Shown: piece after piece, positions 9,253 through 40,520 of the stretch
Numbering within the stretch: the first letter of the stretch is position 1
How the letters are laid out: the number at the start of each line of letters is the position of its first letter
Assembly (NCBI GenBank): GCA_900320045.1
Contig: ONQT01000019.1
Span: 1-51,346, forward strand
Origin: an uncultured Prevotellaceae bacterium
Lineage (GTDB): Bacteria > Bacteroidota > Bacteroidia > Bacteroidales > Bacteroidaceae
DNA length: 51,346 nucleotides
Direction of reading: 5' to 3'
Position numbers and translations under genes: made by a program
The notes under the pieces: model-generated
The model's database searches: none
What the model saw: only the letters and a program-made list of their open reading frames with translations
What the model was told of the DNA's origin: nothing

Positions 9253-12200
9253 ATGAACCAAGAAGAGAGAAAAACCTATCCGTTGCTGCAATCGCAATTA
9301 GGAGTGTTCTACGACTGTCTGAAATTTCCACAGGTCATGCAGTATAATATTCCATGCATCACCGAGTTGTCCCATGACATCAACATGGACCGTGTAGAGC
9401 AGGCCATACAGACCATATTTTCCCATCGTCCGGAACTGAGCATGCGCTTCCTGATTGACGACAACGGCGAGCCGCGTCAGTATGTCGACGAGACGAAGCA
9501 GCTCGCCATCGTGCGTCGTGAGATGACAGAGGACGACTTCCGCCAGTATGCCTATCATGGCTTCTGCCGTCCGTTCGACATCATGGGCGAGGAGCCGCTG
9601 TTACGCATAGAACTGATTACCACGACGGAAGGGAAACGCTATATGCTGCTGGACATCCATCACCTCATTTCCGACGGCACAAGCTATCTGGTGCTCTTCC
9701 CGCAGCGCGACCTGCCATTGGCCTACGAGGGCAAGCCCCTGCCGCCACAGGAATATAGCATACTGGATGCTGCTGAGGACGAAGCGGCTTGCCTGGGCAA
9801 TGAAGAGTACGAGCGCGCCAAGGCGGTGATGACGGAGAAATATGCCGGTGTCGACCTGGCAACACTGTCGGCACGGCCTGAGAACCCAGTCGGTGAAATG
9901 GGACAGGAGTCGGCCTATATCAGTCGCACACAGGTGGACAACTGGTGTCAGGAGAACGGCTTCGCACCCTACCAGCTGTTCCAGGCAGCCTTCAGCTATG
10001 TGCTGGCACGCATGCTGCGCGAGGAGAAGGTGGCCTATACCACCATCTACCACGGGCGCCGCGACCCACGGGTGAAGCAGGCTTACGGCATGTTCGTACG
10101 CACCATTCCGTTTATGATGGAAATCAAGCAGGAACAGACCGTTCGCGAATACATCGCCAGCGTCCACCAGGAGATGAAGGAGACGCTGGCACAGCTGGCC
10201 TACCCCTTCTCGCACTTCTGCCGCGACATCGGTGTGCAGCCCGGCATATCGTTCAACTTCACGGCACTGCCCGGCTGGGAGGAGGCCTGCCACTTCGGCG
10301 AGACGCACTGTCCGCTGGTGCAGCAAGACCGCGGCGACGTATTCTACGACATGCTCGCCCATATCTTCCTGGCAGGCGAGAACTACGACATCCGCATGGA
10401 GTCGAGCCTGGCGATGAACAGCCGCAAGCAGATGCGAACAATGGCCGACGCCATCAAGGCCACGATGGAGCACATGATGGCCCAGCCCGACGGGGCCATC
10501 GACAGCATCAGCATCGTGAGCGAAGAAGAAGTTGAGCGTATCATTAAAATAGGCACAGGCAAGGACATTGACGTCGACCTGAGCAAGACCTTTGCCAACC
10601 TCTTCACCGAACAGGCCCAGCGCACGCCCGATGCTCCCGCTGTGGTTGACAGGGACAGCCAGCTGACCTATGGCGAGATGGACCGCTACTCCAATGCGCT
10701 GGCTCACCAGCTCATTGACTTCGGTGTCCGGCCCGACGACTTCGTGTGCGTCATGCTCGACCGCTTCAAGGAGTTTCCGTTGGCTGTACTGGCTATCCAC
10801 AAGGCCGGTGCGGCCTATACCCCACTCGACTTCGAATATCCCAATGAACGACTGAGCTACATGCTCGAGAACTCGGAGTCGAAGGTGCTCATCACTACGC
10901 AAGACGTGCTGCAGGCCAAACAGGCCGAGGGCGACTTCAGCACTGCTGCCGCCCGGACGTTCTTCATCGATGACTTCATGGCTACTGTGGTCGGCGGTTC
11001 TACTGTGGTCGGCGGTTCTGCCGCCGACACCACCCCCATAGACCTCTCCCGTCCCGACGGTCTCGCCTACATGATCTACACCTCCGGCTCCACGGGCAAG
11101 CCCAAGGGCGCCATGCTGCATCAGGCCGGCCTACGCAACTTCATCGCTGTCGTCATCGACATGGAGAAGCTGACGGCCAACGACCGCATCAGCGGCCACC
11201 GCTCTTTCTCGTTCGACGCGCACATCGAGGATATGTACCCCGTGTTGACGTTGGGCGGCTCGTTCCACATCATGCCGACGGAGATTCGTAAAGATCTCGC
11301 AGCCATCCGCCAGTTCCTCATAGACCATCAGTGTACGGGAGGCGGTTATTCGACGGCAATGACCAGTCTGCTGCTCAACACCTTCGACGACCTGCCCATC
11401 CGCTTTACCACGGGTGGCGGCGAGAAGATGGACGGCGTCTACAGCGACCATATAGAGATTATCAATGTCTACGGGCCTACGGAGTGCACCGACGACACCT
11501 CTTACTACAGCATCCCTGCAGGCAGAAGGGTGGAGAATATCCCCATCGGACAGAGTGTGGCCAACAACTGGAACTTCATTGTCGACACTGCCGGCAACCT
11601 CATGCCGCTGGGTGTGTCTGGCGAGCTGTGCTTTGCTGGCATCCAGGTGGGATGCGGCTATTGGCGCCTGCCCGAGCGTACGGCGAAGTCGTTCATCGAC
11701 TGTCCGTTTGTCAAGCAGGACCGCTGGGGCCGTCCCGTCCGCATGTACCACACCGGCGACCTCTGCCGGTGGAATGAGGACGGGCAGATAGAGTATATAG
11801 GACGCATCGACACCCAGGTTAAGTTGCGCGGCTTCCGCATCGAACTGGGTGAAATCGAGAGCAAGGCCCTAAACATCGAGGGCATCCGTCAGGCCGCTGC
11901 CGAGGTGCGCAAGGTGCAGGGCAACGAGCACCTCGTACTCTATTATACGGTGTCCGATGGTTCCGCTATCGGAGAAGAGGACATCCGCTCCGCCCTCGCT
12001 GCATCGTCGCTGGCCGAATACATGGTGCCCGACGCCTATATGCAGATGGACAGCATGCCGATGACGCCCAACGGCAAGATTAACCGCAAGGTGCTCCCTG
12101 CACCCGAGATGAAGCGTGCCACAGAATATGTGGCTCCGGAGGGGGAGAAGGAAGAGCTGTTCTGCAGTATCTTCTCGGATATTCTGAACATCAAGGAGGT

Positions 12201-13659
12201 GGGTGCTACCGACAACTTCTTCGAGATTGGCGGTACCAGCATCAATGCCATCAAGGTCATCGTCGAGGCCAGCAAGCACGGTGCGCAGATTGTCTTCAAC
12301 GACCTCTTCAACCTGAAGACCCCTCGTGCCCTGGCGGCATACGTCAGTGAAGGCGCTACTGCCGCCGGCGGTTCTGCCGCTGCTGTGCCTGGTGCTACTG
12401 TGGTCGGCGGTTCTGCCGCCGACGCCCTCGCCGCTTCCCCCGAAGCCGCCCATTACGTCCCTCTCAACGCACTCCTGAAAAAGAACACCCTCGACGCCTT
12501 CCGCAACAGCGAGCGCCAGCCCATCGGCGACGTCCTGCTGACGGGAGCAACAGGCTATCTCGGCATCCATATCCTCAACGAACTGCTGACCAATTATCAG
12601 GGAAAGATTCTATGTCCTGTCCGTGGCAAGGACGACGAAAAAGTGCTGAGTCGCGTCAAGTCGCTGTACTTCTATTACTTCGGCCATACGCCGACCTTCA
12701 GCCATTTCGACGAGCGCGTTACGGTCTTCGCCGCCGAGGTGACGGAACCCGACGCCCTCGAAAAAGCAGCAGAAGCAAATTCTTCACTCTTCACTCTTCA
12801 CTCTTCACTCACTGTCATCAACTGCGTAGCCAACGTGAAGCACTTCTCAGCGGGCAATGACATTGAGATGGTGAACATCGAGTCCGTGCGCCACCTGGTG
12901 TCCTTCTGTCTCCGTACAGGCTCGCGACTCATCCACATCTCCACCAACAGCATTGCAGGACTCAGCGTTGACAATGTCCCCGGCCCCGAGGTTAAATTGT
13001 CAGAGCAGGACTTCTACATCGGACAGAACGTCGACGCCAACAAATACATCTATTCCAAATTCAAGGCCGAGGAGCTGGTGCTCGACGCCATCGCCCACCA
13101 CGGGCTGAACGCCAAGATTATGCGTGTCGGCAACCTCTCCGCACGCCAGAAAGACGGTGAGTTCCAGATCAACTTCAACACCAACAACTTTCTGGCCAAG
13201 CTGCGTGCCTATGTCGTCATCGGTATGGTGCCCTACGAGCACCTAGACCGCTGCTTCGAGTTTTCGCCCATCGACGAGGTGGCTCATGCCATTATGCAAC
13301 TGGCCCAGACACCTGTGGACTGCATGGTGTTCCATCCTTGCAACACCCACCGCCAGTTTCTCAGCGACATCCTCATGGGCTTTGCAGAGTCGGGCATCAC
13401 GCTGAAACATGTCGAGACCGAGGAGTTCCAGCTGGCCCTGCAGCGCATGATGGACAATCCCGATCTGGTCACCCTGCTCCGTCCGCTGATGGCATACGAT
13501 ATGGGTGGCGGTCACAAAATGACCTGGATAGAATCCACTAACGACTACACCACGCAGGTACTCTATCGCCTTGGCTTCCAGTGGCCTCCCACTGCCGCCG
13601 ACTACGTACACCGGTTTGTAGATACCATTGTCGGCTTCGACTACTTCAACGTGAAGTAG
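9253..13659 (+). CDS. single-module nonribosomal peptide synthetase with reductive release (C-A-T-R)
   Basis: A 1468-residue NRPS. The condensation domain is at about 1-430 with catalytic HHLISDG (136-142). The adenylation domain is at about 455-945 (YTSGSTGKPKG near 610, NVYGPTE, YHTGDL near 833, NGKINRK near 940). The carrier domain has GGTSI (Ser near 997). The thioester reductase domain is at about 1090-1468 with the Rossmann motif TGATGYLG and 'YIYSK' as the short-chain-reductase Tyr/Lys pair. Aligning to GrsA by eye gives specificity residues near D-A-E-G-F-T-V-D-D-K. The Glu and Asp residues hint at a basic or amine-bearing amino acid, with low confidence. Reductive release would give an aldehyde or alcohol. 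The leading C domain implies an acyl or aminoacyl donor from elsewhere. No phosphopantetheinyl transferase or partner synthetase is in the window. Repeat-derived in-frame inserts lie within the A domain (about 577-593), in the T-R linker (about 1036-1057) and in the R domain (about 1178-1187). Confidence 0.93.
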   Translation: MNQEERKTYPLLQSQLGVFYDCLKFPQVMQYNIPCITELSHDINMDRVEQAIQTIFSHRPELSMRFLIDDNGEPRQYVDETKQLAIVRREMTEDDFRQYAYHGFCRPFDIMGEEPLLRIELITTTEGKRYMLLDIHHLISDGTSYLVLFPQRDLPLAYEGKPLPPQEYSILDAAEDEAACLGNEEYERAKAVMTEKYAGVDLATLSARPENPVGEMGQESAYISRTQVDNWCQENGFAPYQLFQAAFSYVLARMLREEKVAYTTIYHGRRDPRVKQAYGMFVRTIPFMMEIKQEQTVREYIASVHQEMKETLAQLAYPFSHFCRDIGVQPGISFNFTALPGWEEACHFGETHCPLVQQDRGDVFYDMLAHIFLAGENYDIRMESSLAMNSRKQMRTMADAIKATMEHMMAQPDGAIDSISIVSEEEVERIIKIGTGKDIDVDLSKTFANLFTEQAQRTPDAPAVVDRDSQLTYGEMDRYSNALAHQLIDFGVRPDDFVCVMLDRFKEFPLAVLAIHKAGAAYTPLDFEYPNERLSYMLENSESKVLITTQDVLQAKQAEGDFSTAAARTFFIDDFMATVVGGSTVVGGSAADTTPIDLSRPDGLAYMIYTSGSTGKPKGAMLHQAGLRNFIAVVIDMEKLTANDRISGHRSFSFDAHIEDMYPVLTLGGSFHIMPTEIRKDLAAIRQFLIDHQCTGGGYSTAMTSLLLNTFDDLPIRFTTGGGEKMDGVYSDHIEIINVYGPTECTDDTSYYSIPAGRRVENIPIGQSVANNWNFIVDTAGNLMPLGVSGELCFAGIQVGCGYWRLPERTAKSFIDCPFVKQDRWGRPVRMYHTGDLCRWNEDGQIEYIGRIDTQVKLRGFRIELGEIESKALNIEGIRQAAAEVRKVQGNEHLVLYYTVSDGSAIGEEDIRSALAASSLAEYMVPDAYMQMDSMPMTPNGKINRKVLPAPEMKRATEYVAPEGEKEELFCSIFSDILNIKEVGATDNFFEIGGTSINAIKVIVEASKHGAQIVFNDLFNLKTPRALAAYVSEGATAAGGSAAAVPGATVVGGSAADALAASPEAAHYVPLNALLKKNTLDAFRNSERQPIGDVLLTGATGYLGIHILNELLTNYQGKILCPVRGKDDEKVLSRVKSLYFYYFGHTPTFSHFDERVTVFAAEVTEPDALEKAAEANSSLFTLHSSLTVINCVANVKHFSAGNDIEMVNIESVRHLVSFCLRTGSRLIHISTNSIAGLSVDNVPGPEVKLSEQDFYIGQNVDANKYIYSKFKAEELVLDAIAHHGLNAKIMRVGNLSARQKDGEFQINFNTNNFLAKLRAYVVIGMVPYEHLDRCFEFSPIDEVAHAIMQLAQTPVDCMVFHPCNTHRQFLSDILMGFAESGITLKHVETEEFQLALQRMMDNPDLVTLLRPLMAYDMGGGHKMTWIESTNDYTTQVLYRLGFQWPPTAADYVHRFVDTIVGFDYFNVK
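10985..11028 (+). repeat. in-frame TTCNN-loop hairpin in the NRPS A domain, with half-unit duplication
   Basis: The full hairpin is at 11008-11028: stem GTCGGCGG, loop TTCTG, stem CCGCCGAC. Its left half with the preceding ACTGTG is duplicated just upstream (10985-11001). The reading frame gives TVVGGS twice, then AAD. It lies between the A2 and A3 core motifs. Confidence 0.85.
12359..12423 (+). repeat. in-frame hairpin element in the NRPS T-R linker
   Basis: A perfect hairpin at 12403-12423 has the same stem and loop as the A-domain copy. It is preceded at 12363-12384 by a decayed version whose stem no longer pairs fully. The translated linker is alanine/glycine-rich (GATAAGGSAAA, ATVVGGSAAD). 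Confidence 0.85.
12783..12810 (+). repeat. four tandem TTCACTC heptamers in the NRPS reductase domain
   Basis: Four perfect copies of a 7-bp unit, translated 'FTLHSSLT' in frame. Because seven is not divisible by three, gain or loss of one unit would shift the frame before the rest of the reductase domain. Confidence 0.85.
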
Positions 13660-13758
13660 TCAACGCCGGCCAATAGTCACACCGCCCCCAAAGCCAAGAC
13701 AAACATCCCCTTCCGTTCTATGGCAGCAGCGATGTCCGGGGCACGTATAATGTTTGAT

Positions 13759-14250
13759 ATGAACAAAGCTATAAAACATAGAATTCTCTTCGTGTGTCAC
13801 GGAAACATCTGTCGCAGTCCGATGGCAGAGTTTGTCATGAAATATCTCATCCAAAAAGAAGGTCTGGAGGAGCACTTCCTGATTGAATCAGCAGCCACGT
13901 CCGCCGAGGAAATCGGCAACGGCGTCTATCCACCGGCACGTCGCAAACTGGCAGAACACGGCATCGGCTGCGAGGGTAAGACGGCACGCCAGATGACACG
14001 TTCGGACTACGACCGCTACGATTATATCATAGGTATGGACACGCGCAACATCCGGAATATGCTCAACATCTACGGCGGCGATCCGGAAAACAAGATCAAG
14101 ATGCTGATGAACTACACCCGTCGCCCGGGAGACGTCGCCGACCCTTGGTACACAGGCGACTTCGAAGCCACCTGGCGTGACGTACTGGAAGGCTGCCAAG
14201 CCCTATTGGACATTCTCACCTCTGCCGACAACACAAGAAGTACAAATTGA
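13759..14250 (+). CDS. low-molecular-weight protein tyrosine phosphatase
   Basis: A 163-residue LMW-PTP. Near the N-terminus 'ILFVCHGNICRSPMAE' contains the CX5R phosphate-binding loop, and 'DPWYTGDF' supplies the general-acid Asp. It would remove phosphate from tyrosines (often on exopolysaccharide tyrosine kinases) or small phosphoesters in the cytoplasm. I start at the ATG at 13759 because homologues begin just before the first beta strand. The frame is open from 13720 with other ATGs, and no ribosome-binding site decides between them. It lies 99 bases after the NRPS on the same strand with no obvious promoter between, so it may be co-transcribed. A role in the NRPS pathway is not shown. 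Confidence 0.92.
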   Translation: MNKAIKHRILFVCHGNICRSPMAEFVMKYLIQKEGLEEHFLIESAATSAEEIGNGVYPPARRKLAEHGIGCEGKTARQMTRSDYDRYDYIIGMDTRNIRNMLNIYGGDPENKIKMLMNYTRRPGDVADPWYTGDFEATWRDVLEGCQALLDILTSADNTRSTN

Positions 14251-14261
14251 AAATGTGCCTA

Positions 14262-16130
14262 TCAAGGCCATGTAGGATAGCCCTTTTCAGCCATCAAGGC
14301 ATCCCAGTTGGCAGGCAATTCAATGGCTACGGTAGAGAAGCCGCCACCAGGCATGGTCTGTACCTTGTTGCGCGAAGCATCGCCCGTGACAAGAAAAGCC
14401 GTCCGTCCTTTTTCCATCGTAGGAATGGTGGTCATAGTCTGAGCATCGGTATCGTACCAATCAGGAACAGCCGTCTCTTCAGCGCCCTCGCTCCTAATAA
14501 TATGCCCCAGATATTGACGGAAGGTATGGCTGCCACCGTCTTTCCGACCGCCTGCGTTAGCGTAATAGTTGGCAAAGGCACGTTCGTAGGCGGAACGACG
14601 CGAATGTTCTATGAGGGCATCCTCCAAACGACCTTTAGTCGTATAACTGTCTTTCAGGATATTGGCTACAGGCTCAGTCATGAGTACTACGCGATTGGTA
14701 AACTGTTTGCCACTGCCTAATGCAAACTGGCAACGCTCAGAGATGTCCCATGCCATCAGTTGCATTACCCGCTCAGGGTCGACAGTCGACGGCGCCATAT
14801 TGTTGCCCCACATCAAGGCTGAAGAGAGTGTCACCGTATTGTCGTTGGCACCATAGCCCAGTTGTTCGCTCCACGTTTGCCACCCTACGCGATGACAGGC
14901 TTCTTCATCCTCTACCAGACACCACGGCTGCAGATAGCCGAAAGTGCCCATACGATTCTGGCCGACATAGTAGCCGGCAAGATTCATCAGTGCCAGTGAC
15001 AGGAAACGGCCCAGCGCCATATTGGCCTGTGCATTGATTTCACCCAGTCCGCTACTTATGCCTAATTGTCGGGCTACGGGGCCGTTCAGCCAAGCGTAGG
15101 GCACCCATGCATGTGTGCTGCCCAGCGTACGACGGAAGTCACCTGCACCCATCGCCTTTGTCATGGCAATGAGTATGGGCATATACTCTGGTTTGCAGCC
15201 CGCCATACAGGCATTGACTGCAATGTGCCAAGTGGTGGTGGCACGAAAGGCCTGCGGCAACACGGCGATAATCTCATCCCAGGCATGGTCTGTATATTTC
15301 AGGAACTCCTGTACTTTTTCATAGGTAGGTGGACAGAATGGTGTGCCATCGCTCCACCCCATAGCTGAAAAGTACGCGTGAATCTCGTCAAGCGTACCAT
15401 GAAACACATCGTCGGTAATACCTTTGACTTGATTGGCTGCTACGTATTCATCCTGACGGATAGCAGTGGTAAGAGCTTTTTCTATTTGGGGCCATGTCAC
15501 TTCGCGCGTATTCTTGATAAGCTGTTCGTCAGTTTGCGAGGCAAATGCTCCCGGATAGACTGCCACGCGCAGTACAGGCACTCCGTTGTTGCGAGCCGTA
15601 TAGCGCGCTTCCTCATCGAAGCCTGGCGCAGCAACGATAACCGACGGTATACCCAGTTTCTCGGCCACGATGCAGGAGCCCGTCTCTTTGGGCGTACAGA
15701 TGCCACAGCCTCCGTTGCCGGCAATGACTGCGTCTACCTTTAGGTTGATGAGCCGTTGGCGGAACTGCTCGGTATTCTGCCGCGTGATGCCGGGGGCAGG
15801 ATAGGGCCCGGCAATGGGTAGTTCGTCGTACATGATGACTTTGGCTGTCGGATAGTGTTCCTTAATAAGCCTGCCTATCTCCGGATGTGTGACGTTGGCC
15901 ATGAAATCCTCACCCACAATGGCAATAGTCTTACCGTTGAGCGTGGACAGTCGTGACCCCATCGTTATCGGCTTAACGGTCGAAAAGCCTACAGGACTCA
16001 CCACATTGTAGCTCACTCCTTGCGTAGTATCCGGAGTACATGATTCGTCACACTGGAAACGGATGCTTTGGGCATTTAGACCTATTGAACACGCCAAAAC
16101 GGTCAGTAATATAAGACTTTGTTGTTTCAT
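14262..16130 (-). CDS. exported UGSC-like protein (Cys in place of selenocysteine) with a fused C-terminal domain
   Basis: A 622-residue protein with signal peptide MKQQSLILLTVLACSIGLNA. I chose the ATG at 16130 for this reason; the frame is open to 16163. Residues about 40-230 resemble the UGSC domain: 'LNGKTIAIVGEDF', then 'VDAVIAGNGGCGICT' with CGIC near residue 140 where UGSC proteins have UGSC, then 'EKLGIPSVIV'. The second half has 'SDGTPFCPPT' and 'AVNACMAGCKPEYMPI', a conserved pair usually found in a separate protein beside UGSC genes. The reaction is unknown; redox or thiol chemistry is inferred from the Cys motifs. Secretion to the periplasm is unusual for this family as I know it. 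It converges on the phosphatase gene with an 11-base gap and diverges from the beta-helix operon. Confidence 0.7.
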   Translation of the reverse strand: MKQQSLILLTVLACSIGLNAQSIRFQCDESCTPDTTQGVSYNVVSPVGFSTVKPITMGSRLSTLNGKTIAIVGEDFMANVTHPEIGRLIKEHYPTAKVIMYDELPIAGPYPAPGITRQNTEQFRQRLINLKVDAVIAGNGGCGICTPKETGSCIVAEKLGIPSVIVAAPGFDEEARYTARNNGVPVLRVAVYPGAFASQTDEQLIKNTREVTWPQIEKALTTAIRQDEYVAANQVKGITDDVFHGTLDEIHAYFSAMGWSDGTPFCPPTYEKVQEFLKYTDHAWDEIIAVLPQAFRATTTWHIAVNACMAGCKPEYMPILIAMTKAMGAGDFRRTLGSTHAWVPYAWLNGPVARQLGISSGLGEINAQANMALGRFLSLALMNLAGYYVGQNRMGTFGYLQPWCLVEDEEACHRVGWQTWSEQLGYGANDNTVTLSSALMWGNNMAPSTVDPERVMQLMAWDISERCQFALGSGKQFTNRVVLMTEPVANILKDSYTTKGRLEDALIEHSRRSAYERAFANYYANAGGRKDGGSHTFRQYLGHIIRSEGAEETAVPDWYDTDAQTMTTIPTMEKGRTAFLVTGDASRNKVQTMPGGGFSTVAIELPANWDALMAEKGYPTWP

Positions 16131-16278: not shown

Positions 16279-16286
16279 ATTTTTCA

Positions 16287-18785: not shown

Positions 18786-19958
18786 ATGCGATCATTTTCG
18801 TTTCTTAAATGGATGAAGCATCAGTCGCGACAAGAGAATATCATTTACTTGGTATTGTGGGTCATGCTATTCATGGCCCCAATACTGAGTTTCTATGTTC
18901 GCTCCATCAACGACGACCACTTCACCTTCGAGTGGAGCGAGGTATGGTTTATATGGCCTAAGTTCGGCGTGTTTCTTCTTCTATTCCTGATACACAACTT
19001 CCTGCTGGCTCCCTTACTCGTCCATGCTCACAAACGGATTCTGTACTTCAGTACCACACTATGCATCGTAGCGCTGTTTACCTTTTACCAATGTAACACG
19101 AGGCCTGACGAGTTCAAGCGTCACCACCATCACCGGGCAGAACACAGGATGGAGCCCAGGGGCGACAGGCCCGACTTTGAACATCGTGACGGTGAGGATC
19201 CCTTCGACGCTCCTCGCAAGCCTCAGCACTTCCGACGCCATCAGGGACCGCCTCCTGCCATCATCGGTGAGCACGATATCATTTCCGTTGTCATCCTCAT
19301 TCTGATGTTTGGCGCTAATCTAGGCATCAAGGGCTACTACAAGCACCGTCAAGACCAGCGTAAGCTGGAATCGCTGCAGAAGGAGAACCTGAAGCACCAG
19401 CTGGAGTATCTGAAGTATCAGATCAACCCGCACTTCTTCATGAATACGCTGAACAACATCCATGCCCTGGTAGACATTGACCCCGAGAAGGCCAAGAGCA
19501 CCATCGTGGAACTGTCGAAGATGATGCGTTTCATCCTCTACGAAGGCGACAAGAACGGTGTTCCCCTCCATCGCGAATGCGAATTCATCCGCACCTACAT
19601 CACCTTGATGCGACTGCGCTATACCGACAAGGTCAAGATCCATGTCGACCTGCCTCATGAGTTGCCCGACAAGACCGTACCGCCACTGATGCTCATCAGC
19701 TTCATCGAGAATGCCTTCAAGCACGGCATCAGCTATCAGCACGACTCGTTCATCGACATCAGGCTGGAAGTCAACAAAGGCCAGCAGCTGCACTTCACCT
19801 GCCACAACTCCAAGGCCGACAAGCCCAACGAGGAGAAAGGCGGCATCGGACTCGCCAACGTCAGACAGAGACTGCGACTGCTGTACGACAGCAACTTCAC
19901 ACTCAACATACAGGACAACCCTGACACTTACAACGTCGAACTAACAATACCACTATGA
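18786..19958 (+). CDS. LytS/YehU-type sensor histidine kinase with His-rich segment
   Basis: A 390-residue membrane kinase of the His_kinase (PF06580) type. Hydrophobic segments near 18-38, 58-80, 85-100 and 158-178 form the N-terminal membrane domain. The phospho-acceptor motif is 'QINPHFFMNTLNNIHAL' with His near residue 216, and the ATPase end has 'PPLMLISFIENAFKHG' and 'GGIGLANVRQRL'. Between membrane segments three and four, residues about 112-155 carry eight histidines with many Asp/Glu/Arg (starting RHHHHRAEH). This suggests a metal- or pH-responsive loop, but the side of the membrane is not certain. Its stop overlaps the regulator start (ATGA, 19955-19958), so the two form a two-component pair. 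Confidence 0.93.
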   Translation: MRSFSFLKWMKHQSRQENIIYLVLWVMLFMAPILSFYVRSINDDHFTFEWSEVWFIWPKFGVFLLLFLIHNFLLAPLLVHAHKRILYFSTTLCIVALFTFYQCNTRPDEFKRHHHHRAEHRMEPRGDRPDFEHRDGEDPFDAPRKPQHFRRHQGPPPAIIGEHDIISVVILILMFGANLGIKGYYKHRQDQRKLESLQKENLKHQLEYLKYQINPHFFMNTLNNIHALVDIDPEKAKSTIVELSKMMRFILYEGDKNGVPLHRECEFIRTYITLMRLRYTDKVKIHVDLPHELPDKTVPPLMLISFIENAFKHGISYQHDSFIDIRLEVNKGQQLHFTCHNSKADKPNEEKGGIGLANVRQRLRLLYDSNFTLNIQDNPDTYNVELTIPL

Positions 19959-20689
19959 TACGATGCATGGCCATAGACGATGAGCCCCTGGCTCTTCAAC
20001 AGATAGCAGCCTATATCGGCAAGGTTCCCTACCTGGAACTGGCGGCACAGTGCCAGAGTGCCGTAGAGGCACGGCAGTTTTTAGAGAACGACACCGTGGA
20101 TGCCATTTTCTGCGACATCAACATGCCTGACCTCAACGGCATGGATTTCGTGAAGTCACTGACAGCTCCACCGCTCATTGTCTTCACAACGGCCTATGCC
20201 GAATATGCCGTCGAGGGTTTCAAGGTTGCCGCCGTCGACTACCTGCTGAAGCCCTTCGGACTGCAGGACTTCCAGCGTGCCGCCAACCGTCTCAAAGAGC
20301 GGTTAGAGGGCAACACCCCTTCAACCAGCGCTACTGTTGTCAGCGGTTCGGCCGCTGACAACGACGCCCTCTTCCTGAAGACGGAATACCGCATCGTCAA
20401 GGTCAGCATCAGCGACATCCGCTACGTCGAGGCCATGAGCGAATACCTGAAGGTACACCTGAAAAGCCAGCCCAAGCCTATCGTCACACTGCTGTCGATG
20501 AAGAAGATGGAAGAGCGCCTGCCTGCCAACTTCATGCGCATCCATCGTTCTTACATCATCAACCTCGATGCCATTCAGGAGGTCAACAAGAACCGCGTTA
20601 TTATGGATGCTGAGACCTACCTACCAGTCGGCGACAACTACAAAGAAACATTTCAACATTATCTTGACGCAAAATTTCTTGGCAAATAG
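19955..20689 (+). CDS. LytTR-family response regulator
   Basis: A 244-residue regulator. The receiver domain (about 1-120) has the acidic pair 'IDDEP', the phospho-acceptor Asp in 'FCDINMPDLNG' (near 54), 'FTTAYAEYAV' and the Lys in 'YLLKPF'. The LytTR DNA-binding domain (about 140-244) has 'IRYVEAMSEYLKVHL' and 'RIHRSYIINLDAI'. The linker between them (about 125-136) contains a translated copy of the 21-bp hairpin element found also in the NRPS and TamB genes. It is partnered with the kinase it overlaps. The inverted repeat before the operon (16245-16278) is a candidate target, although LytTR proteins usually bind direct repeats. Confidence 0.95.
   Translation: MIRCMAIDDEPLALQQIAAYIGKVPYLELAAQCQSAVEARQFLENDTVDAIFCDINMPDLNGMDFVKSLTAPPLIVFTTAYAEYAVEGFKVAAVDYLLKPFGLQDFQRAANRLKERLEGNTPSTSATVVSGSAADNDALFLKTEYRIVKVSISDIRYVEAMSEYLKVHLKSQPKPIVTLLSMKKMEERLPANFMRIHRSYIINLDAIQEVNKNRVIMDAETYLPVGDNYKETFQHYLDAKFLGK
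20339..20359 (+). repeat. in-frame TTCNN-loop hairpin in the LytTR regulator linker
   Basis: Stem GTCAGCGG, loop TTCGG, stem CCGCTGAC, read as VSGSAAD in the linker between receiver and LytTR domains. The stem differs from the NRPS copies at paired positions, so pairing is kept. Confidence 0.85.
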
Positions 20690-34155: not shown

Positions 34156-34190
34156 GAATTAACAATTGAGAATTAACAATTTAGGAAAAT

Positions 34191-34215
34191 CGAAATACCG
34201 AAACATCGAAATAAC
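34191..34215. repeat. 25-bp interspersed repeat before fabG
   Basis: Reads CGAAATACCGAAACATCG followed by AAATAAC. It matches the copy at 26509-26533 (opposite strand) at 23 of 25 positions. It is preceded by the repeated word AATTAACAATT (34156-34182). Confidence 0.7.
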
Positions 34216-34243
34216 AGAATAACAACAAAAAAGTAAAAGCATT

Positions 34244-34981
34244 ATGGGATTATTACAAGGAAAGACAGCGCTGATTACAGGTGCTGCACGTGGTATCGGA
34301 AAGTCTATCGCCCTGAAGTTTGCTGCTGAGGGTGCCAACATTGCCTTCACCGACCTGCAGGTGAACGAAGAGACAGAGAAAGAGATTGCCGCCCTGGGCG
34401 TCAAGGCCAAGAGCTATGCTTCGAACGCTGCAGATTTCGCACAGACGGAGGAGGTGGTCAACGCCGTCAAGGCTGAGTTCGGCTCCATCGACATCCTGGT
34501 GAACAACGCCGGTATCACGAAGGACGGTCTGATGCTGCGCATGACCGAGCAGCAGTGGGACGCCGTGATTGCAGTGAACCTGAAGTCGGCATTCAACTTC
34601 ATCCATGCCTGCACACCGATCATGATGCGCCAGCGTGGTGGTAGCATCATCAACATGGCCAGCGTCGTGGGTGTTCACGGCAATGCCGGACAGGCTAACT
34701 ACGCTGCCTCCAAGGCTGGCCTGATTGCTTTGGCCAAGAGTATTGCACAGGAGATGGGTCCTAAGGGCATCCGTGCCAACGCCATTGCTCCGGGCTTCAT
34801 CGAGACGGCTATGACAGCTGCCCTGCCCGACGAGGTGCGCGAGGAGTGGAAGAAGAAGATTCCCCTGCGTCGCGGCGGTCAGGTGGAGGACATTGCCAAC
34901 GTGGCTACATTCCTTGCCAGCGACCTCTCCAGCTATGTCAGCGGACAGGTCATTCAGGTCGATGGTGGCATGAATATGTAA
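34244..34981 (+). CDS. fabG: 3-oxoacyl-ACP reductase
   Basis: A 245-residue short-chain dehydrogenase. It has the cofactor motif 'TGAARGIGKSIA', 'NNAGITKDGLML', catalytic Ser in 'NMASVVGVHG', Tyr/Lys in 'YAASKAG', and 'PGFIETAM'. Length and motifs are typical of FabG, which reduces 3-oxoacyl-ACP with NADPH in fatty acid synthesis. It could serve general fatty acid synthesis or the polyene-type cassette at 21.4-27.8 kb, which lacks its own reductase. It follows the TetR regulator and a small repeat-rich gap. Confidence 0.95.
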   Translation: MGLLQGKTALITGAARGIGKSIALKFAAEGANIAFTDLQVNEETEKEIAALGVKAKSYASNAADFAQTEEVVNAVKAEFGSIDILVNNAGITKDGLMLRMTEQQWDAVIAVNLKSAFNFIHACTPIMMRQRGGSIINMASVVGVHGNAGQANYAASKAGLIALAKSIAQEMGPKGIRANAIAPGFIETAMTAALPDEVREEWKKKIPLRRGGQVEDIANVATFLASDLSSYVSGQVIQVDGGMNM

Positions 34982-34989
34982 AGTCCATC

Positions 34990-35010
34990 CCCCTCTCCTC
35001 AGGCGAGGGG
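34990..35010 (+). repeat. hairpin between fabG and rluA
   Basis: CCCCTC/GAGGGG stem with a nine-base loop, followed by CTTTTG. It could be a weak terminator, but it also resembles the CCCTC..GAGGGG repeat in the protease relic (7115-7136). Confidence 0.45.
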
Positions 35011-35020
35011 CTTTTGAATC

Positions 35021-35704
35021 ATGAAAGTCGTTTACGAAGACAATCATATTATCATCGTACACAAAGAGAGCGGGGAGATCGTACAGGGCGACAAGACTGG
35101 CGACCGCCCCCTTTCTGAACTGGTGAAGGATTACATCAAGGAGAAGTACCAGAAGCCTGGTGCCGTTTTCCTTGGTGTAGTACATCGCCTCGACCGTCCC
35201 GTCAGCGGACTGGTAGTCTTTGCACGTACCTCGAAAGCGCTCACCCGACTGAACAAGATGTTTGCCGATGGCGAAGTACACAAAACCTATTGGGCGATTG
35301 TGGCAATGAAAAGTGAGGAAAAGGAAGAAAACAAATGGAAGGAGGTGACCCACTGGCTGGTGCGCAACGAGCAGCAGAACAAGTCGTACGCCTACGACCA
35401 CGAGGTGCCCCGCTCAAAGAAGGCCATTCTGCGCTATCGTGTGATAGGCCACTCAGACCGTTACCAACTGTTGGAGGTGAACCTCCTGACGGGTCGCCAC
35501 CACCAGATACGCTGTCAGTTGGCAGCCATCGGTTCACCCATCAAGGGCGACCTGAAATACGGTGCCCGTCGCAGCAATCCTGACGGCAGTATCTCGCTGC
35601 TGTCTCACAAGGTGGAGTTTATTCACCCCGTATCCAAAGAGAAAATTGAGGTCACTTCACCCCTACCCGACGACATTCTTTGGCACAACATGAAAAATAA
35701 TTGA
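35021..35704 (+). CDS. RluA-family pseudouridine synthase
   Basis: A 227-residue enzyme. The catalytic Asp lies in 'VVHRLDRPVSGLVVFART', the RluA-family signature. Other family stretches are 'VYEDNHIIIVHKESGEIVQ' near the start and 'LLTGRHHQIRCQLAAIG' near residue 165. It isomerises uridine in rRNA or tRNA; the exact target is not readable. No S4 domain is present. The start is 39 bases after fabG, with a hairpin in the gap. Confidence 0.93.
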   Translation: MKVVYEDNHIIIVHKESGEIVQGDKTGDRPLSELVKDYIKEKYQKPGAVFLGVVHRLDRPVSGLVVFARTSKALTRLNKMFADGEVHKTYWAIVAMKSEEKEENKWKEVTHWLVRNEQQNKSYAYDHEVPRSKKAILRYRVIGHSDRYQLLEVNLLTGRHHQIRCQLAAIGSPIKGDLKYGARRSNPDGSISLLSHKVEFIHPVSKEKIEVTSPLPDDILWHNMKNN

Positions 35705-35714
35705 TATTTCATGG

Positions 35715-35745
35715 TTGTTTATTGACAATTATTGATTATCTTTGC
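35715..35745 (+). promoter_or_regulatory. promoter of tamB-tamL
   Basis: TTG (35715-35717), 19 bases, then TATCTTTG (35737-35744), about 27 bases before the tamB ATG. Confidence 0.8.
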
Positions 35746-35771
35746 AGCGTCAACGCATGTAAAGACAATCT

Positions 35772-38700
35772 ATGAAGAAAGCACTGTGGTGGATTTTGGG
35801 CATCCTGCTGAGCCCCGTTCTGCTGTTTATCATACTGGCAATACTGCTTTACCTGCCCCCCGTACAAAACTGGGCCGTGCAGAAGGTAACAGCCTATGCC
35901 TCTGAAGAGACAGGCATGGACATCACCGTGGGCTACGTCCGACTGGCTTTCCCCCTGGACTTGGCCGTCAACGATGTCCGCGTGCTATCCCCCGCCCCAT
36001 CGCTTGCTACTGCCAACGACACACCCATTGATACCATTGCCGACATGCAGCGTATGGTGGTCGACGTGCAGCTGCTGCCGCTCTTTGCCAGCAAGGTGGT
36101 CATTAACGAACTGGAAATCACCAACACCAGCCTCAATACCAACGGATTCATTGCCGCTGCCCGTGTGAAGGGCCGCTTCGACCGGCTGTTTGTGTCCAGC
36201 AGAGGCATTGACCTGAGGAAGGAGAAGGTAGAGGTGAACGGCACCACACTCGAAGGTGCCTCATTGGACATCCAACTGAATGACTCCGTTCCTGAAGACA
36301 CTACGACGTCTGAAAACCACTGGAAGATACACGTTGACGGTGTAACCATTGAGCGTTCAGACCTTACGTTGCACATGCCTGGCGATACGATGCGCATCGG
36401 TGCCCACATGGGCGAACTGACGGCCCGCGAGGCGCTGATAGACCTCGAGTCGCAGACCTATACGGTAGCCAGCGTCGACTGGACCAACGGTGCCCTGCGC
36501 TATGATAACGGCCCCGCAACAACTCCCGCCTCCAGCGGTTTACCCGCTGAAACAGTGGTCGATGGTTCAGCCATCGACTTCAACCACCTGGACTTCACGG
36601 ACATCAACATTGGCATAGACAGCATCTACTACCACGACCCCACGCTGCGCCTATACCTGCGGCAAGTAGCGCTCAAGGAGAAGAGTGGTCTGCAGATTAC
36701 CGACCTGTCCGGTCCCGTCAGGATGGAGAATGGCAACATCAGATTGCCTAAGTTCCGCCTAAAGACACCCGACAGCGAGATAGACGTTGAGTTGGACATG
36801 CCACTTTCACTGACAGACTCCATAGACCCAGGCAAGATGCGCCTACGGATGAATGCCCAGATAGGCAAGCGAACGCTGATGCCCTTCCTGGCCGATATGC
36901 CCAAGGACTTCCAACAACGCTGGCCCGACCAACCACTGAGCGTCAATGGACAATTGAAGGGAAATCTGCAGCACATGGACTTCAATGATCTCGACGTTCA
37001 GCTCCCTGGCGCCTTCAAGGCTACAGCAACGGGCTTCGTTGCTAACTTGAACGACCCGTCGAAGCTGGTGGCTGACGTGCAGTTCAAGGCACAGACACAG
37101 AACTTAGCCTTCGTGATGGCCCTGCTGCCACGTGACATGCAACGAGACTACCGACTGCCTCCCATGTCAGCACAGGGTCGCGTGACAGCACGAGGCGACT
37201 ACTATGCCGCCAACATGACGCTGCACGAAGGTCGCGGGACCGTCAGTGCCAAGGGCTCGTTCAATGCTGCGGCCATGCGCTACAATGCTGACGTGATAGT
37301 ACGCGACCTGAACGTTCACCACTTCATGCCACGCGACTCCATCTATACGGTCTCTGCCGACATCCAGGCCAACGGACAGGGCACGGACTTCCTATCGCCC
37401 AGAACACGCCTGCAGGCTGATGCCAAGATCTACCACTTAGGATATGGCAAATGGAACTTCGACAACATGACGGCTAAGGCAGACGTTCACAACGGCCACG
37501 CAGTGATAGACGCCACCAGCAAGAACCCGCTCATCAGCGGTCGACTGCTGGCTGACGCCCAGTTGAGTACTAAGAAGCTGAATGCCTCGGTGATTGCCGA
37601 CCTGAAACAAGTAGACCTTTATAAAATGCAGCTCTCGGACAACCCGCTGGCCATTGGTCTCTGTGGTCATGTGGACGTCACGTCCGACATGAAACTAACG
37701 CACTATGTCAGCGGACTTATCAGCGACATTAGCATCCGCGACAGCGTCAAGACCAGACGTTCGGAGTTCGTGGGAATACATATCAAGACGGACAACGACA
37801 CCACGCTGGCACGTATACAGAGTGGCGACTTCATCGTCAAAGTGGATGCCAGCGGTGACTACGAACATGTGCTCAAGCAGTTAACCATTTTAGGCGACTC
37901 AGCTACGGCACAATTGGAGCAAAAAGTCATCAATCAGTCCGCCTTGCGTCAACTGCTCCCCACCATGAAACTGCACGTGGAGAGCAAGAACGACAATCCC
38001 ATCGCTATGATGCTGAAGAGCGGTCAGGGACTGGACTTCAAGGAACTGCTCTTCGACATGAACACATCGCAGGAGACGGGCATCAACGGCAATGGCTACA
38101 TCCACTCGCTGACGGTCAGCGACGTTAAATTGGACACCATCAACTTCCGTCTGTCACAACGCAAGGAACGTCTGTCGTTTGGTGGACAGATACGCAACAA
38201 CAAGAAGAACCCGCAATTCGTCTTCAACGCCCTCTTCGACGGCATTCTGCAGGAACGTGGTGCCACCTTCGGGGTTCGCGTCTTCGATGCCAACAACAAG
38301 TTGGGAGCACGCATTGGCGCTCAGGCTGAGATGGCAGACGGAGGCATCAACCTCCACCTGATTCCCGAACGGCCTACGCTGGGCTACAAGGAATTCAGCC
38401 TCAATAGGAGCAACTTTGTCTTCCTCAGCAAGACAGGAAAGATCAAGGCTGATCTCGACCTGCGTGCCGACGACGGGATGGGTGTGAAGATATACACACA
38501 GGATGCAGACTCTACGAATAGGCAAGACCTGACCTTGAGTATGCATCAGGTGAACTTAGAAGAGCTCACCTCCGCCCTGCCATATGTGCCCCGTATGACA
38601 GGAATCCTGAATGGCGACTGCCACATCGTGCAGAACACTGACGGCCAACTATCGATGGTGGGCGATATCGGTGTGCGCGACATGACTTACGAGCGCAGTC

Positions 38701-40520
38701 CCATCGGTAATGTCAGCACTGAACTGGTTTATATGCAGCGTGACGGCAACGCCCATGGTGTAGAGGCCCGACTGATGAAGGACGACACGGAGATTGGTCT
38801 CTTGCGAGGTACTTATTATAATGAAGGTGAAGGTTCACTGGATGCCAAGCTGCAATTGGACAAGTTGCCGCTGAGCATCGTCAATGGCTTCGTACCCGAC
38901 CAGATTATCGGTCTGAAGGGATTCGCTGACGGTGAACTCAGCGTGGAGGGACCTTTATCAAAACCTGTCGTCAACGGTGAGTTGATGCTTACCTCATCAG
39001 CCATCGAGAGTGTGCCCTACGGCATCACTTTGCGCGTTGACGACGATCCCGTACGCATCGTTAACTCCAACCTGTTATTCGAAAACTTCACGGCCTACTC
39101 CATGAACGAGAGTCCGTTGACCATTCAGGGAAACGTGAACTTCAGCGATTTGGACAAGGTGATGGTCGAACTCCGCATGCGAGCCAAGGACTTCCAGATT
39201 ATCGGTGCCAAAGAAAACGTGAAGAGCGTGGCCTACGGCAAGGCCTTTGTTGACCTCTTTGCCAGTTTGAAAGGCCCTGTCGACAACCTTAACATGCGTG
39301 GAAGACTGAACGTACTGAGTTCTACGGATATCGGATACATCCTGCGTGACTCACCCCTGACGACAGACAACCACCTGGACAATCTGGTGAAGTTCACCGA
39401 TTTCTCCGACACCACGCAAACCGTCGTACAGCGTCCCACGCTAAACGGTTTCCACATGGATATGACGGTAGACATCTCCAAGGGAGCACACGTGATGGCC
39501 TACCTCAACACAGACCACTCTAACTACATCGACCTATTAGGCGGTGGCACATTGCGCATGCAGTACTCCCCTAGCGACAACCTGCAGCTGACGGGACGCT
39601 ACACGCTGTCAAATGGCGAAATGAAATATGCTTTGCCTTTCATCCCGCTGAAGACCTTCACCATTCAGGACGGAAGCTATGTGGAGTTTACTGGCGCCCC
39701 CATGAACCCCACACTGAACATCACGGCCACAGAGCGTGTCAAGGCCAATGTTACTAACGCCAACGGTGTAGGACGAAGTGTCGACTTCGACTGCGGAGTC
39801 AAGATTACCAAGACGCTCAACGATATGGGTTTGCAGTTTACGCTGGACGCTCCCGAGGACATGCAGCTGCATAGCGAGCTGCAGTCGCTAGGCGCTGAAC
39901 AGCGCGGCAAACTGGCAGTTACCATGCTGACCACGGGCATGTATCTCGCTGACGGCAATACCAAGCCGTTCTCCATGAACTCAGCCCTTAGCTCGTTCCT
40001 GAACTCCGAAATCTCCAACCTGACGGGTAATGCCCTGCGTACGCTGGACCTCTCGTTTGGCATGGACAACACAACGGACGCCACAGGCAATACACATACC
40101 AACTACTCCTTCAAGTTTGCCAAGCGCTTCCTCGACAACCGCCTGAAGGTCGTCGTAGGTGGCCAGGTTACCTCAGGAGCTGAAATGCCTGGTGGACGCA
40201 ACAAGTCATTCTTCGACAACGTGTCCATGGAATACCGATTGGACAAAGCCGCCAGCAAGTACCTGAACCTCTTCTTCGAGAACAACAGCTACGACTGGTT
40301 AGACGGCTACACGCAGAAATATGGCGGTGGCTTCATCTGGCGTCGCAACCTGCAGAAGTTTACGGATATCTTCCGCTTCAAAGACCCGAAGCCCACCATG
40401 ATGCGCAGGCCCACTGGTACCACCGCCCCCGCCGTCAGCGGTTCACCCGCTGACAAAAACACAGTGTCCAGCGATTCCGTCGCTGGAACGCCAAAACCGA
40501 ATGCCCATGAAAAGAAATAA
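35772..40520 (+). CDS. tamB: TamB-type translocation/assembly protein (AsmA-like, DUF490)
   Basis: A 1582-residue protein anchored by one N-terminal helix (ALWWILGILLSPVLLFIILAI). A very long beta-rich region follows, with an AsmA-like start ('VTAYASEETGMDITVGYVRL'), and the C-terminal DUF490 domain from about 1230 ('LTGRYTLSNGEMKYALPFIP', 'FTIQDGSYVEFTGAPMNPTL'). Such proteins bridge inner and outer membrane in the periplasm and help move lipids or assemble outer-membrane proteins with a BamA-type partner. The tamL start overlaps its end, confirming the pair. Four translated hairpin repeats lie in flexible stretches, two near residues 255-268 and two in the C-terminal tail (about 1555-1572). 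Confidence 0.88.
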   Translation: MKKALWWILGILLSPVLLFIILAILLYLPPVQNWAVQKVTAYASEETGMDITVGYVRLAFPLDLAVNDVRVLSPAPSLATANDTPIDTIADMQRMVVDVQLLPLFASKVVINELEITNTSLNTNGFIAAARVKGRFDRLFVSSRGIDLRKEKVEVNGTTLEGASLDIQLNDSVPEDTTTSENHWKIHVDGVTIERSDLTLHMPGDTMRIGAHMGELTAREALIDLESQTYTVASVDWTNGALRYDNGPATTPASSGLPAETVVDGSAIDFNHLDFTDINIGIDSIYYHDPTLRLYLRQVALKEKSGLQITDLSGPVRMENGNIRLPKFRLKTPDSEIDVELDMPLSLTDSIDPGKMRLRMNAQIGKRTLMPFLADMPKDFQQRWPDQPLSVNGQLKGNLQHMDFNDLDVQLPGAFKATATGFVANLNDPSKLVADVQFKAQTQNLAFVMALLPRDMQRDYRLPPMSAQGRVTARGDYYAANMTLHEGRGTVSAKGSFNAAAMRYNADVIVRDLNVHHFMPRDSIYTVSADIQANGQGTDFLSPRTRLQADAKIYHLGYGKWNFDNMTAKADVHNGHAVIDATSKNPLISGRLLADAQLSTKKLNASVIADLKQVDLYKMQLSDNPLAIGLCGHVDVTSDMKLTHYVSGLISDISIRDSVKTRRSEFVGIHIKTDNDTTLARIQSGDFIVKVDASGDYEHVLKQLTILGDSATAQLEQKVINQSALRQLLPTMKLHVESKNDNPIAMMLKSGQGLDFKELLFDMNTSQETGINGNGYIHSLTVSDVKLDTINFRLSQRKERLSFGGQIRNNKKNPQFVFNALFDGILQERGATFGVRVFDANNKLGARIGAQAEMADGGINLHLIPERPTLGYKEFSLNRSNFVFLSKTGKIKADLDLRADDGMGVKIYTQDADSTNRQDLTLSMHQVNLEELTSALPYVPRMTGILNGDCHIVQNTDGQLSMVGDIGVRDMTYERSPIGNVSTELVYMQRDGNAHGVEARLMKDDTEIGLLRGTYYNEGEGSLDAKLQLDKLPLSIVNGFVPDQIIGLKGFADGELSVEGPLSKPVVNGELMLTSSAIESVPYGITLRVDDDPVRIVNSNLLFENFTAYSMNESPLTIQGNVNFSDLDKVMVELRMRAKDFQIIGAKENVKSVAYGKAFVDLFASLKGPVDNLNMRGRLNVLSSTDIGYILRDSPLTTDNHLDNLVKFTDFSDTTQTVVQRPTLNGFHMDMTVDISKGAHVMAYLNTDHSNYIDLLGGGTLRMQYSPSDNLQLTGRYTLSNGEMKYALPFIPLKTFTIQDGSYVEFTGAPMNPTLNITATERVKANVTNANGVGRSVDFDCGVKITKTLNDMGLQFTLDAPEDMQLHSELQSLGAEQRGKLAVTMLTTGMYLADGNTKPFSMNSALSSFLNSEISNLTGNALRTLDLSFGMDNTTDATGNTHTNYSFKFAKRFLDNRLKVVVGGQVTSGAEMPGGRNKSFFDNVSMEYRLDKAASKYLNLFFENNSYDWLDGYTQKYGGGFIWRRNLQKFTDIFRFKDPKPTMMRRPTGTTAPAVSGSPADKNTVSSDSVAGTPKPNAHEKK
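36533..36578 (+). repeat. two in-frame TTCNN-type hairpins in tamB
   Basis: First: CAGCGG / loop TTTAC / CCGCTG (36533-36549), read SSGLPAE. Second: GTCGATGG / loop TTCAG / CCATCGAC (36558-36578), read VDGSAID. They are adjacent in a low-complexity stretch around residues 255-268. Confidence 0.8.
40434..40487 (+). repeat. two in-frame TTCNN hairpins in the tamB tail
   Basis: First: GTCAGCGG / TTCAC / CCGCTGAC (40434-40454), read VSGSPAD. Second: TCCAGCGA / TTCCG / TCGCTGGA (40467-40487), read SSDSVAG. Both stems are perfect 8-bp pairs with different sequences. Confidence 0.85.

Follow-up and report, generated by a model that had tools for sequence, protein, structure and literature searches.

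In-frame hairpins of Prevotella form a dispersed palindrome family that is probably REP-like and linked to a RAYT-like protein

Introduction

Short perfect hairpins lie inside three genes of a 51,346-nucleotide stretch of DNA from an uncultured Prevotellaceae bacterium (assembly GCA_900320045.1, contig ONQT01000019.1, positions 1 to 51,346; hereafter the window), where they are read in frame as part of the encoded proteins. What are these palindromes, and how did they come to lie within coding sequences? Here, we report that they belong to a dispersed family of in-frame palindromes whose two arms change together. They are probably elements akin to repetitive extragenic palindromic (REP) sequences, belonging to a HUH/Y1 protein family of Prevotella that resembles REP-associated tyrosine transposases (RAYTs). 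No description of such elements in Prevotella was found among the open-licence papers that our searches listed, and the word Prevotella is absent from the main texts of two papers on REPs, PMC3733652 and PMC6006769.

Results

The hairpins of the window and their host genes

Six hairpins with 8-bp stems were confirmed letter for letter where the original prediction, made from the sequence of the window, had placed them, five with the stems GTCGGCGG, GTCAGCGG or GTCGATGG and one with TCCAGCGA; the 6-bp copy at 36533-36549 and the decayed copy near 12363 that it had named are present as well. All lie on the plus strand, and bit scores are those of the covariance model described below. The first host gene (9253-13659) encodes a protein with condensation, AMP-binding, PP-binding and reductase matches, resembling a nonribosomal peptide synthetase (NRPS). 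At its residue 585, the element at 11002-11028 (ACTGTG + GTCGGCGG-ttctg-CCGCCGAC, 43.0 bits) reads T-V-V-G-G-S-A-A-D and is directly preceded by an 18-bp tandem half copy at 10984-11001 (tag ACTGTG, arm GTCGGCGG, loop start TTCT), a duplication that the original prediction missed and that a pattern search lists at 10990-11010 with 3 mismatches. Also overlooked was an element at 11947-11973 (ACGGTG + TCCGATGG-ttccg-CTATCGGA, hairpin 11953-11973, 7 of 8 pairs, 26.7 bits), which reads T-V-S-D-G-S-A-I-G between the AMP-binding and PP-binding matches. The decayed copy (12364-12384, GCCGGCGG-ttctg-CCGCTGCT) keeps 5 of 8 pairs (15.2 bits, E 0.83), and a further element at 12397-12423 (ACTGTG + GTCGGCGG-ttctg-CCGCCGAC, 41.8 bits) falls at residue 1050, between the PP-binding and reductase matches.

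The second host, a response regulator with a LytTR domain (19955-20689), carries in its linker the element at 20333-20359 (ACTGTT + GTCAGCGG-ttcgg-CCGCTGAC, 40.8 bits), whose pairing extends to 11 bp. The third, TamB (35772-40520), contains the partial 6-bp copy CAGCGG-tttac-CCGCTG (36533-36549), an element at residue 262 (36552-36578, ACAGTG + GTCGATGG-ttcag-CCATCGAC, 36.6 bits), a hairpin at residue 1554 (40434-40454, GTCAGCGG-ttcac-CCGCTGAC, 32.2 bits) that has CCCGCC before the stem instead of the ACTGTG tag and a loop ending in C, and an element at residue 1565 (40461-40487, ACAGTG + TCCAGCGA-ttccg-TCGCTGGA, 35.4 bits). A location in linkers or tails, as had been proposed, holds for residue 128 of the response regulator (between Response_reg, 6-109, and LytTR, 146-237), for residue 1050 of the NRPS-like protein and for TamB residues 1554 and 1565, but not for the copy at 11008, whose residue 585 lies inside the AMP-binding match (451-804). 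Likewise, the three unrelated hosts are confirmed by their domain matches, but the family extends over the genome and is not limited to them.

A family with free but paired stems

The genome of the window (G000) comprises 2.31 Mb in 75 contigs and is 79% complete. We analysed 747 kb of it, the window plus 40 stretches from contigs with pattern matches, and densities given here are thus not those of a random genome sample. The strict pattern GTCNGCGGTTCNNCCGCNGAC had 13 exact matches in G000, and its reversed control none. The 747 kb contain 77 perfect 8-bp stems with a 5-nt loop, where one first-order Markov sequence gave 15; for loops of 3, 4, 6, 7 or 8 nt, the counts are 23-35, against 8-17. 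A loop-oriented set of 58 elements (stem of at least 8 bp, TTY loops) gave the consensus ACTGTG, stem NNCRRCGG and loop TTYNG. The unit thus has three parts: a tag, a stem of 8 bp whose closing pairs are mostly GG/CC, and a TTYNG loop. In a minority, CGCT or CGCC precedes the stem and the last loop base is C. The covariance model was built from 53 elements chosen for perfect stems, and their complete pairing therefore proves nothing. It returned 96 matches at E up to 1; 75 reached at least 22.9 bits, and 72 of these were placed (L069 8699 and L070 13978, at stretch ends, and L044 16210, with a deletion, were left out). Such numbers correspond to the high-copy, dispersed short hairpins of classic REPs. 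The 72 elements carry 50 different stem arms, and the last four bases of their tags are TGTG in 37, TGTT in 7, CGCT in 7 and others in fewer, with TGTC in one. In the 53 model elements, stem pair 1 is G-C or C-G in 40 and stem pair 2 in 24. Two variants were seen beside this main form: a sub-family with 4-nt TTCT loops and 8-bp stems, in 3 copies (G000 C22:56024, C41:46982 and C49:154), and tandem CCTTGCGG hairpin pairs about 40 bp apart (C49:16155-16230 and C49:21880-21952), in mRNA sense directly upstream of likely start codons.

Pairing was then measured on sites that had not been selected for it: only the tag, the closing GG/CC and the loop were fixed, and the six outer Watson-Crick pairs were scored. 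Of the 19 ACTGTGN6GGTTYNGCC sites, 14 form all six pairs, 4 form five and the last one four; when the tag was not required, 92 GGTTYNGCC sites qualified, of which 31 form six pairs and 11 form five. The controls, also without the tag, behave otherwise: none of 29 sites with TTA or TTG loops has four or more outer pairs; when the first loop base is changed (GGVTYNGCC), 5 of 132 have four and none more; and when the second is changed (GGTVYNGCC), 14 of 285 have four, one has five and none six. The claim that the arms change together so as to keep pairing is thus upheld.

The encoded peptide, commonly V-S-G-S-A-A-D and often in linkers, invites the explanation that stretches rich in Gly, Ser and Ala happen to form hairpins, a concern that the original prediction had itself raised. 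Synonymous-codon shuffles of 526 open reading frames (ORFs) answer it: 36 TTY-loop hairpins were observed in phase 0, against a mean of 0.30 (maximum 2) in 30 shuffles, and in the other phases 3 against 0.23 and 5 against 0.13, whereas 5-nt loops other than TTY showed no excess (12 against 12.5). Moreover, hairpins in other reading frames encode unrelated peptides. Chance or codon and peptide composition as the source of the hairpins is therefore ruled out, and we give it practically no credence.

Distribution and association with a RAYT-like gene

When 200 genomes of the genus were scanned with a pattern, 27 had matches, and the reversed control gave few. The covariance model, run on the same 200 genomes (E up to 0.1, strict filters, up to about 35 candidates scored per genome), gave at least one match in 97, at least 18 in 27, which we call rich, and none in 103. 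In the named collection, the 80 stretches listed come nearly all from Prevotella or Prevotellaceae metagenome-assembled genomes (MAGs), many with ruminant-stomach names. Among the matches listed, complete pairing extends to records of two Bacteroidaceae, two Bacteroidales and one Sodaliphilus. Four pattern matches from outside Bacteroidales have imperfect stems and were dismissed as chance; of the other Bacteroidales/Bacteroidetes matches, two (L279, L282) are imperfect as well. Complete hairpins are present in all four viral contigs with a pattern match.

The original prediction had guessed that a REP-type tyrosine transposase would co-occur with the hairpins. Presence of Pfam Y1_Tnp alone, seen in 23 of the 27 rich genomes and in 55 of the 103 without hairpins (p 0.0036), proved a weak marker and was discarded. 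A search of 42 Y1_Tnp loci with the hairpin model gave matches at E up to 1 in 6, of which one, L109 in genome G009, was strong: the hairpin lies just behind the stop of a 316-residue protein (open frame of 340 codons) with the motifs MPDHLH and YLDDNPRR. Behind this hairpin runs a tandem repeat of about 25 bp (CATGGCTAGYGCGGAGATGTGGGGG; L109 2250-2370). With this protein (L109/L366) as query and E up to 1e-10, relatives were found in 108 of the 200 genomes, including G000 (C37, C60). They are present in 26 of 27 rich genomes, 25 of 29 with 5-17 matches, 23 of 41 with 1-4 and 34 of 103 with none (rich versus none, Fisher p = 8e-10; Spearman 0.59, measures that ignore phylogeny and include many incomplete MAGs). 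The guessed transposase thus does co-occur. In the viral contigs, the scan for the protein returned one weak relative.

Among the 30 best-scoring RAYT-like loci, 17 have a hairpin-model match at E up to 1, and in ten the hairpin follows the stop codon by 0-81 bp, eight of these at E below 0.001. The distance is 0-13 bp in L366-L372 (L367 and L368 touching), 38 bp in L373, 66 in L374 and 81 in L375; L370 and L371 have weak hairpins (17.2 and 16.8 bits, E 0.03-0.04). In L368-L372, a second hairpin stands head to head, tag to tag, with the first (13.5-23.8 bits). Flanking by REPs, often as inverted pairs, as is typical of RAYT genes, is thus seen in one subgroup. The ten loci come from G009, G001, G199, G090, G151, G120, G079, G111, G147 and G154, with 0-14 matches per genome; the low-copy G009 (2 matches in 4.1 Mb) and G147 (2 matches) have strong hairpins (34.5 and 31.5 bits) behind the stop. 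Some elements lie within the RAYT-like gene itself, in frame in L306 and as 4-nt-loop variants in L383, L386 and L388. In L306 (4206-5360) and L378 (1255-2337), in-frame hairpins stand between or near the HUH and Y motifs, and a gene copy in G000 contains 8- and 9-bp stems with 4-nt loops.

The protein has the HUH motif and single Y (Y...NP) of RAYTs, with MPDH.H and Y...NP.R invariant in 29 aligned members; the L306 protein, outside this alignment, has PEHLH and YIHNNPRS. Y1_Tnp is matched by 26 of the 29 at E up to 5 and exceeds its cut-off of 23 bits in one of four tested (L366, 25.6 bits), while NF047646, the REP tyrosine transposase family, matches four of four at E 3e-8 to 2e-10, in each case below its cut-off. 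These matches support a putative identity as a remote RAYT. Most members have about 310-430 residues with a long C-terminal tail, about 130 residues of which are conserved (L366-L396). A DprA-like nature of this tail was considered and is not claimed (PDB matches at E about 0.9, hhalign probability 1.5, no such Pfam match in 29 members).

Insertion and in-place origin

We compared 17 sites in ten G000 genes with 29 relatives (RecO) or 6-12 relatives (the others), all of the same genus. The idea of in-frame insertion fits seven sites, which lie in stretches that most relatives lack, but not six ungapped sites, where the hairpin was made by substitution; four are poorly alignable. In TatD, two elements share a segment of about 22 residues that none of the 11 relatives has. 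The Lpd 356 stretch is absent in 8 of 11, and G105 and G098 have their own different hairpins there; those of CobJ 104 and 267 are absent in 4 of 6 each, G105 having its own different hairpin at 104; that of ArgS 219 is absent in 9 of 10 and common to G000 and G105; and PheT 223 is a 6-residue stretch absent in 10 of 10. Four PheT orthologues (L400, L403, L405, L408) have a 6-bp hairpin at one site adjoining the longer G000 element, with arms that differ yet pair (CGACGA, CAACGA twice and CGATAA).

The ungapped sites are in RecO, the aminotransferase (141 and 314), ArgH (376 and 427) and Lpd (275). At residue 314 of the aminotransferase, the arms are CTTTGCGA/TCGCAAAG in G000 and CTGTGCGA/TCGCACAG in G105 and G107; at ArgH 376, G000 and G098 have a hairpin, and G162 has the same local peptide without one. 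The poorly alignable sites are the response regulator linker, similar in length in most relatives and bearing its own GTCAGCGG hairpin in G098, and three at the Rho N-terminus (one below 22.9 bits). Some copies are thus insertions, and others arose in place, with no change of length. A TTY hairpin of at least 6 bp was found in 14 of 159 orthologous windows of relatives (16 sites, RecO excluded); elsewhere in these genes, 3 of 1130 windows had one. We read from this that hairpin sites are re-used among relatives and that most are not conserved. The original prediction had named orthologues in distant genera with the same residues and no pairing as telling against it; the relatives compared here, all of the same genus, mostly lack the residues or the pairing. 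One aminotransferase gene, that of G105 (L337 3123-4586; match G105:C88:11254-12471, minus strand), has nine hairpins in and around it, in sense with this match and some spaced by 36 bp, a repeated local gain where most relatives have none to two.

The in-place sites bring up an origin that requires no transposase, in which template switching (quasipalindrome correction) perfects near-palindromes. By eye, several of these sites are near-palindromic in relatives without the hairpin (for instance, the C-D-F-V-A codons of the aminotransferase), and perfect Watson-Crick arms in 50 different sequences among 72 elements also speak for it. However, template switching leaves the conserved tag and loop, the insertions of 6-22 residues and the link with a RAYT-like gene unexplained, and other 5-nt loops show no excess. 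We regard it as improbable as the origin of the family, but it may still act on existing elements.

Reading frame and coding strand

Of the 72 G000 elements, 62 fall within ORFs, called by length only: 48 in sense phase 0, five in sense phase 2, two in sense phase 1 and seven antisense; the other 10 are intergenic. The mostly extragenic position of classic REPs is hence not that of this family, although density per kb is higher outside ORFs (0.28 versus 0.09). A common reading frame, as first proposed, is a strong preference (48 of 62 intragenic copies) but not a rule. Strand was also called with a coding model based on hexamers and trained on the long ORFs of G000, which placed 43 elements in sense and 6 in antisense (21 unclear, 2 at edges). 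For 143 distinct matches in 76 loci of other genomes, it gave 99 sense (92 in phase 0), 9 antisense, 27 unclear and 8 at edges. Unclear cases with both flanks callable were sense rather than antisense by 8 to 0 in G000 and 7 to 1 elsewhere (1 mixed), and those with one callable flank by 9 to 4 and 15 to 1; two had none. Several antisense matches are halves of inverted doublets (L306, L266, L252, L310), which overlap in these loci and in L281. Even intergenic copies with co-directional or single ORF neighbours are sense in 7 of 8, a small number that includes one tandem pair, and four sense copies lie 10-15 bp ahead of the next called ORF; the remaining two of the ten lie between convergent genes. 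Stops are as rare in antisense frame 2 as in sense frame 0 (1 of 53 in each), and small residues are as frequent, so that peptide tolerance offers no obvious reason for 3 matches in the former against 48 in the latter. A replication-strand explanation was also considered, and local GC skew is negative around 66 of the 72 elements. Contrary to the strand rule, 5 of the 7 copies detected in the four viral contigs are antisense in frame (L327, L328) and 2 are sense (L326, L329). The antisense copies, three in L327 and two in L328, read LGGKTAEHS at three distinct sites; these lie in one gene, primase-like by eye, that the two large phage-like contigs have in common.

Such a bias is what functional mRNA elements would display, that is, sense hairpins with a UGUG tag and a UUYNG loop that are bound by a regulator or nuclease and selected, their link to the RAYT-like gene being secondary. 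The 55:7 sense to antisense ratio in G000 ORFs and 99:9 in other genomes, the sense copies ahead of ORFs, the neglected antisense frame and the paired changes at single sites (aminotransferase residue 314, PheT) all speak for this explanation. Selection at the RNA level should, however, favour G.U pairs, and imperfect stem positions comprise 6 G.U, 8 A.C and 2 others in G000 (45 elements) and 23 G.U, 27 A.C and 33 others in the other fetched loci (195 elements). Since G.U does not exceed A.C, these data favour pairing at the DNA level, in a modest sample in which recent copies would look alike. In addition, the hairpin is missing at 145 of 159 orthologous windows, the viral copies are mostly antisense, and this explanation accounts neither for insertions and inverted doublets nor for the arrangement beside RAYT-like genes. 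We therefore consider selected mRNA elements an unlikely explanation. Together, intergenic copies in mRNA sense and the absence of a G.U preference lead away from selection on peptide or on RNA.

Discussion

The reading best supported by these results is a REP/RAYT system whose tag is of the YGTN type and whose stem recognition is relaxed. The original prediction had left the choice between selection on structure and copying by an enzyme that recognises hairpins; mobilisation of the hairpins by the RAYT-like protein is something we infer from the arrangement of the loci, from co-occurrence and from the activity described for E. coli TnpA-REP in the main text of PMC6006769. In the proposed mechanism, the protein would recognise single-stranded hairpin DNA by the tag and the closing GG-TTYNG-CC rather than by stem sequence, and would cut the hairpin and rejoin it at new places, by analogy with TnpA-REP and GTAG REPs. 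Copies would persist wherever the host protein tolerates the peptide that they encode, mostly T-V-x-x-G-S-A-x-x, and arms would stay perfectly paired because mobile copies must fold. Hairpin-templated repair perhaps rewrites one arm from the other, which would account for arms that are perfect yet diverse and for the hairpins formed in place. Our guess is that the target is the non-template strand bared by transcription, from which the coding-strand bias would follow.

Several observations weigh against this REP/RAYT reading. At the level of the elements, the classic GTAG/GTGG tag is not found at the hairpin foot in the G000 family, stems differ in 48 of 53 element pairs less than 3 kb apart, and insertion alone would not be expected to give the hairpins that arose in place at ungapped sites. 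As to the gene, it is present in a third of hairpin-free genomes (34 of 103) and was not found in the rich G080 (62% complete) or in 4 of the 29 genomes of the middle class. The ten hairpin-flanked genes, whose products share about 71-100% identity with the query, make up a single subgroup, and all ten come from genomes that are not rich; their hairpins mostly have CGTT, TGTT, CGTC or TGTC tags and TTTTG loops instead of TGTG and TTCNG (of 18 such elements, 2 of them out of register, 8 have CGTT/TGTT and 5 CGTC/TGTC). Among the 30 loci, rich genomes have hairpins only inside the gene (G220, G007) or beside a truncated gene (G061, G201), and no hairpin was found at those of the rich G000, G064, G129 and G075; for G000, this concerns the C37 gene, the C60 gene lying outside that search. 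In the protein, the G000 copy reaches 17.1 bits with Y1_Tnp against the cut-off of 23, and the four NF047646 scores (36.1, 33.6, 40.0 and 40.6 bits) are all below the cut-off of 80. Finally, no HUH enzyme is known to us whose action follows mRNA sense.

Of all these findings, the coding-strand bias is the one explained least well; transcription-exposed single strands or later selection could both cause it. A more specific and rather speculative form of the REP/RAYT reading, which we hold possible and by no means probable, is a DNA hairpin system whose elements would be written into the coding (non-template) strand during transcription, with an enzyme that reads only the tag and the loop-closing motif, and stems supplied or rewritten locally by hairpin-templated copying, which would give every copy a stem of its own; about 100 or more host proteins per rich genome would be decorated in frame. 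Free stems and strand bias make it testable whether an HUH enzyme acts on the transcription-exposed strand and whether hairpin-templated copying makes new stems.

REPs owe their name to a position outside genes, whereas most members of the large, REP-like family described here lie inside reading frames and are predicted to be translated. Differences between linkers of Prevotella species may be footprints of mobile DNA and not adaptation.

REPs, RAYTs and intragenic REPs, some in frame, have already been described (main texts of PMC3733652 and PMC6006769), and it is to these systems that the Prevotella family is closest. In the 2013 survey by Di Nocera et al., CGTC REPs have an 8-9 bp stem, a 4-5 nt loop and a tag CGTC often changed to TGTC, and they include head-to-head dimers, different stems within one family and some intragenic copies (main text of PMC3733652). 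The Prevotella hairpins share the stem, the loop, the head-to-head pairs, the varied stems and the intragenic copies, and their tags overlap in part, with TGTC in 1 of 72 elements of G000 and CGTC or TGTC in 5 of the 18 RAYT-flanking ones. They do not share the A-T first two stem pairs and the CCA tail given there for CGTC REPs, no CCA following the Prevotella hairpins. That survey reports no dedicated transposase for CGTC-type REPs; unlike them, the Prevotella hairpins have an associated RAYT-like gene, and this lineage thus offers a hairpin family akin to CGTC-type REPs in stem, loop and tag beside a candidate enzyme. The parallel with Rickettsia palindromic elements, drawn in the original prediction, holds as an analogy: these too are palindromes in frame in unrelated proteins, and RPE-4 and RPE-6 are classed as CGTC REPs (main text of PMC3733652), but they belong to another phylum, RPE-1 is a longer insertion, and REP/RAYT is the closest kind.

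In E. coli, TnpA-REP cleaves and rejoins GTAG REPs (main text of PMC6006769). Compared with the systems described there, the REPtrons of Quentin et al. (2018), Prevotella elements are mostly intragenic and in frame, with a stem nearly unconstrained within one genome and a tag consensus of ACTGTG (YGTN near the RAYT-like gene). With IS200/IS605 and its Y1 transposases, the Prevotella proteins share the HUH-Y1 core; their Y motif is of the NP type (class 2) and not of the Q type (class 1; Table 1 of PMC6006769). By description, DH[LIF]H, Y...NP (YLDDNP and similar) and length in combination fit no subclass in that table. Subclass 2.6 (median 179 residues, NH[LIV]H), mostly from Bacteroidetes, is flanked according to the same source by atypical hairpins without GT[AG]G that have copies elsewhere in the genome, and, judged by description, may include relatives of the Prevotella system. 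What sets the Prevotella family apart from known REP/RAYT systems is its mostly intragenic life, its near-free stem, its tag, the length and motifs of its protein, and its strand bias.

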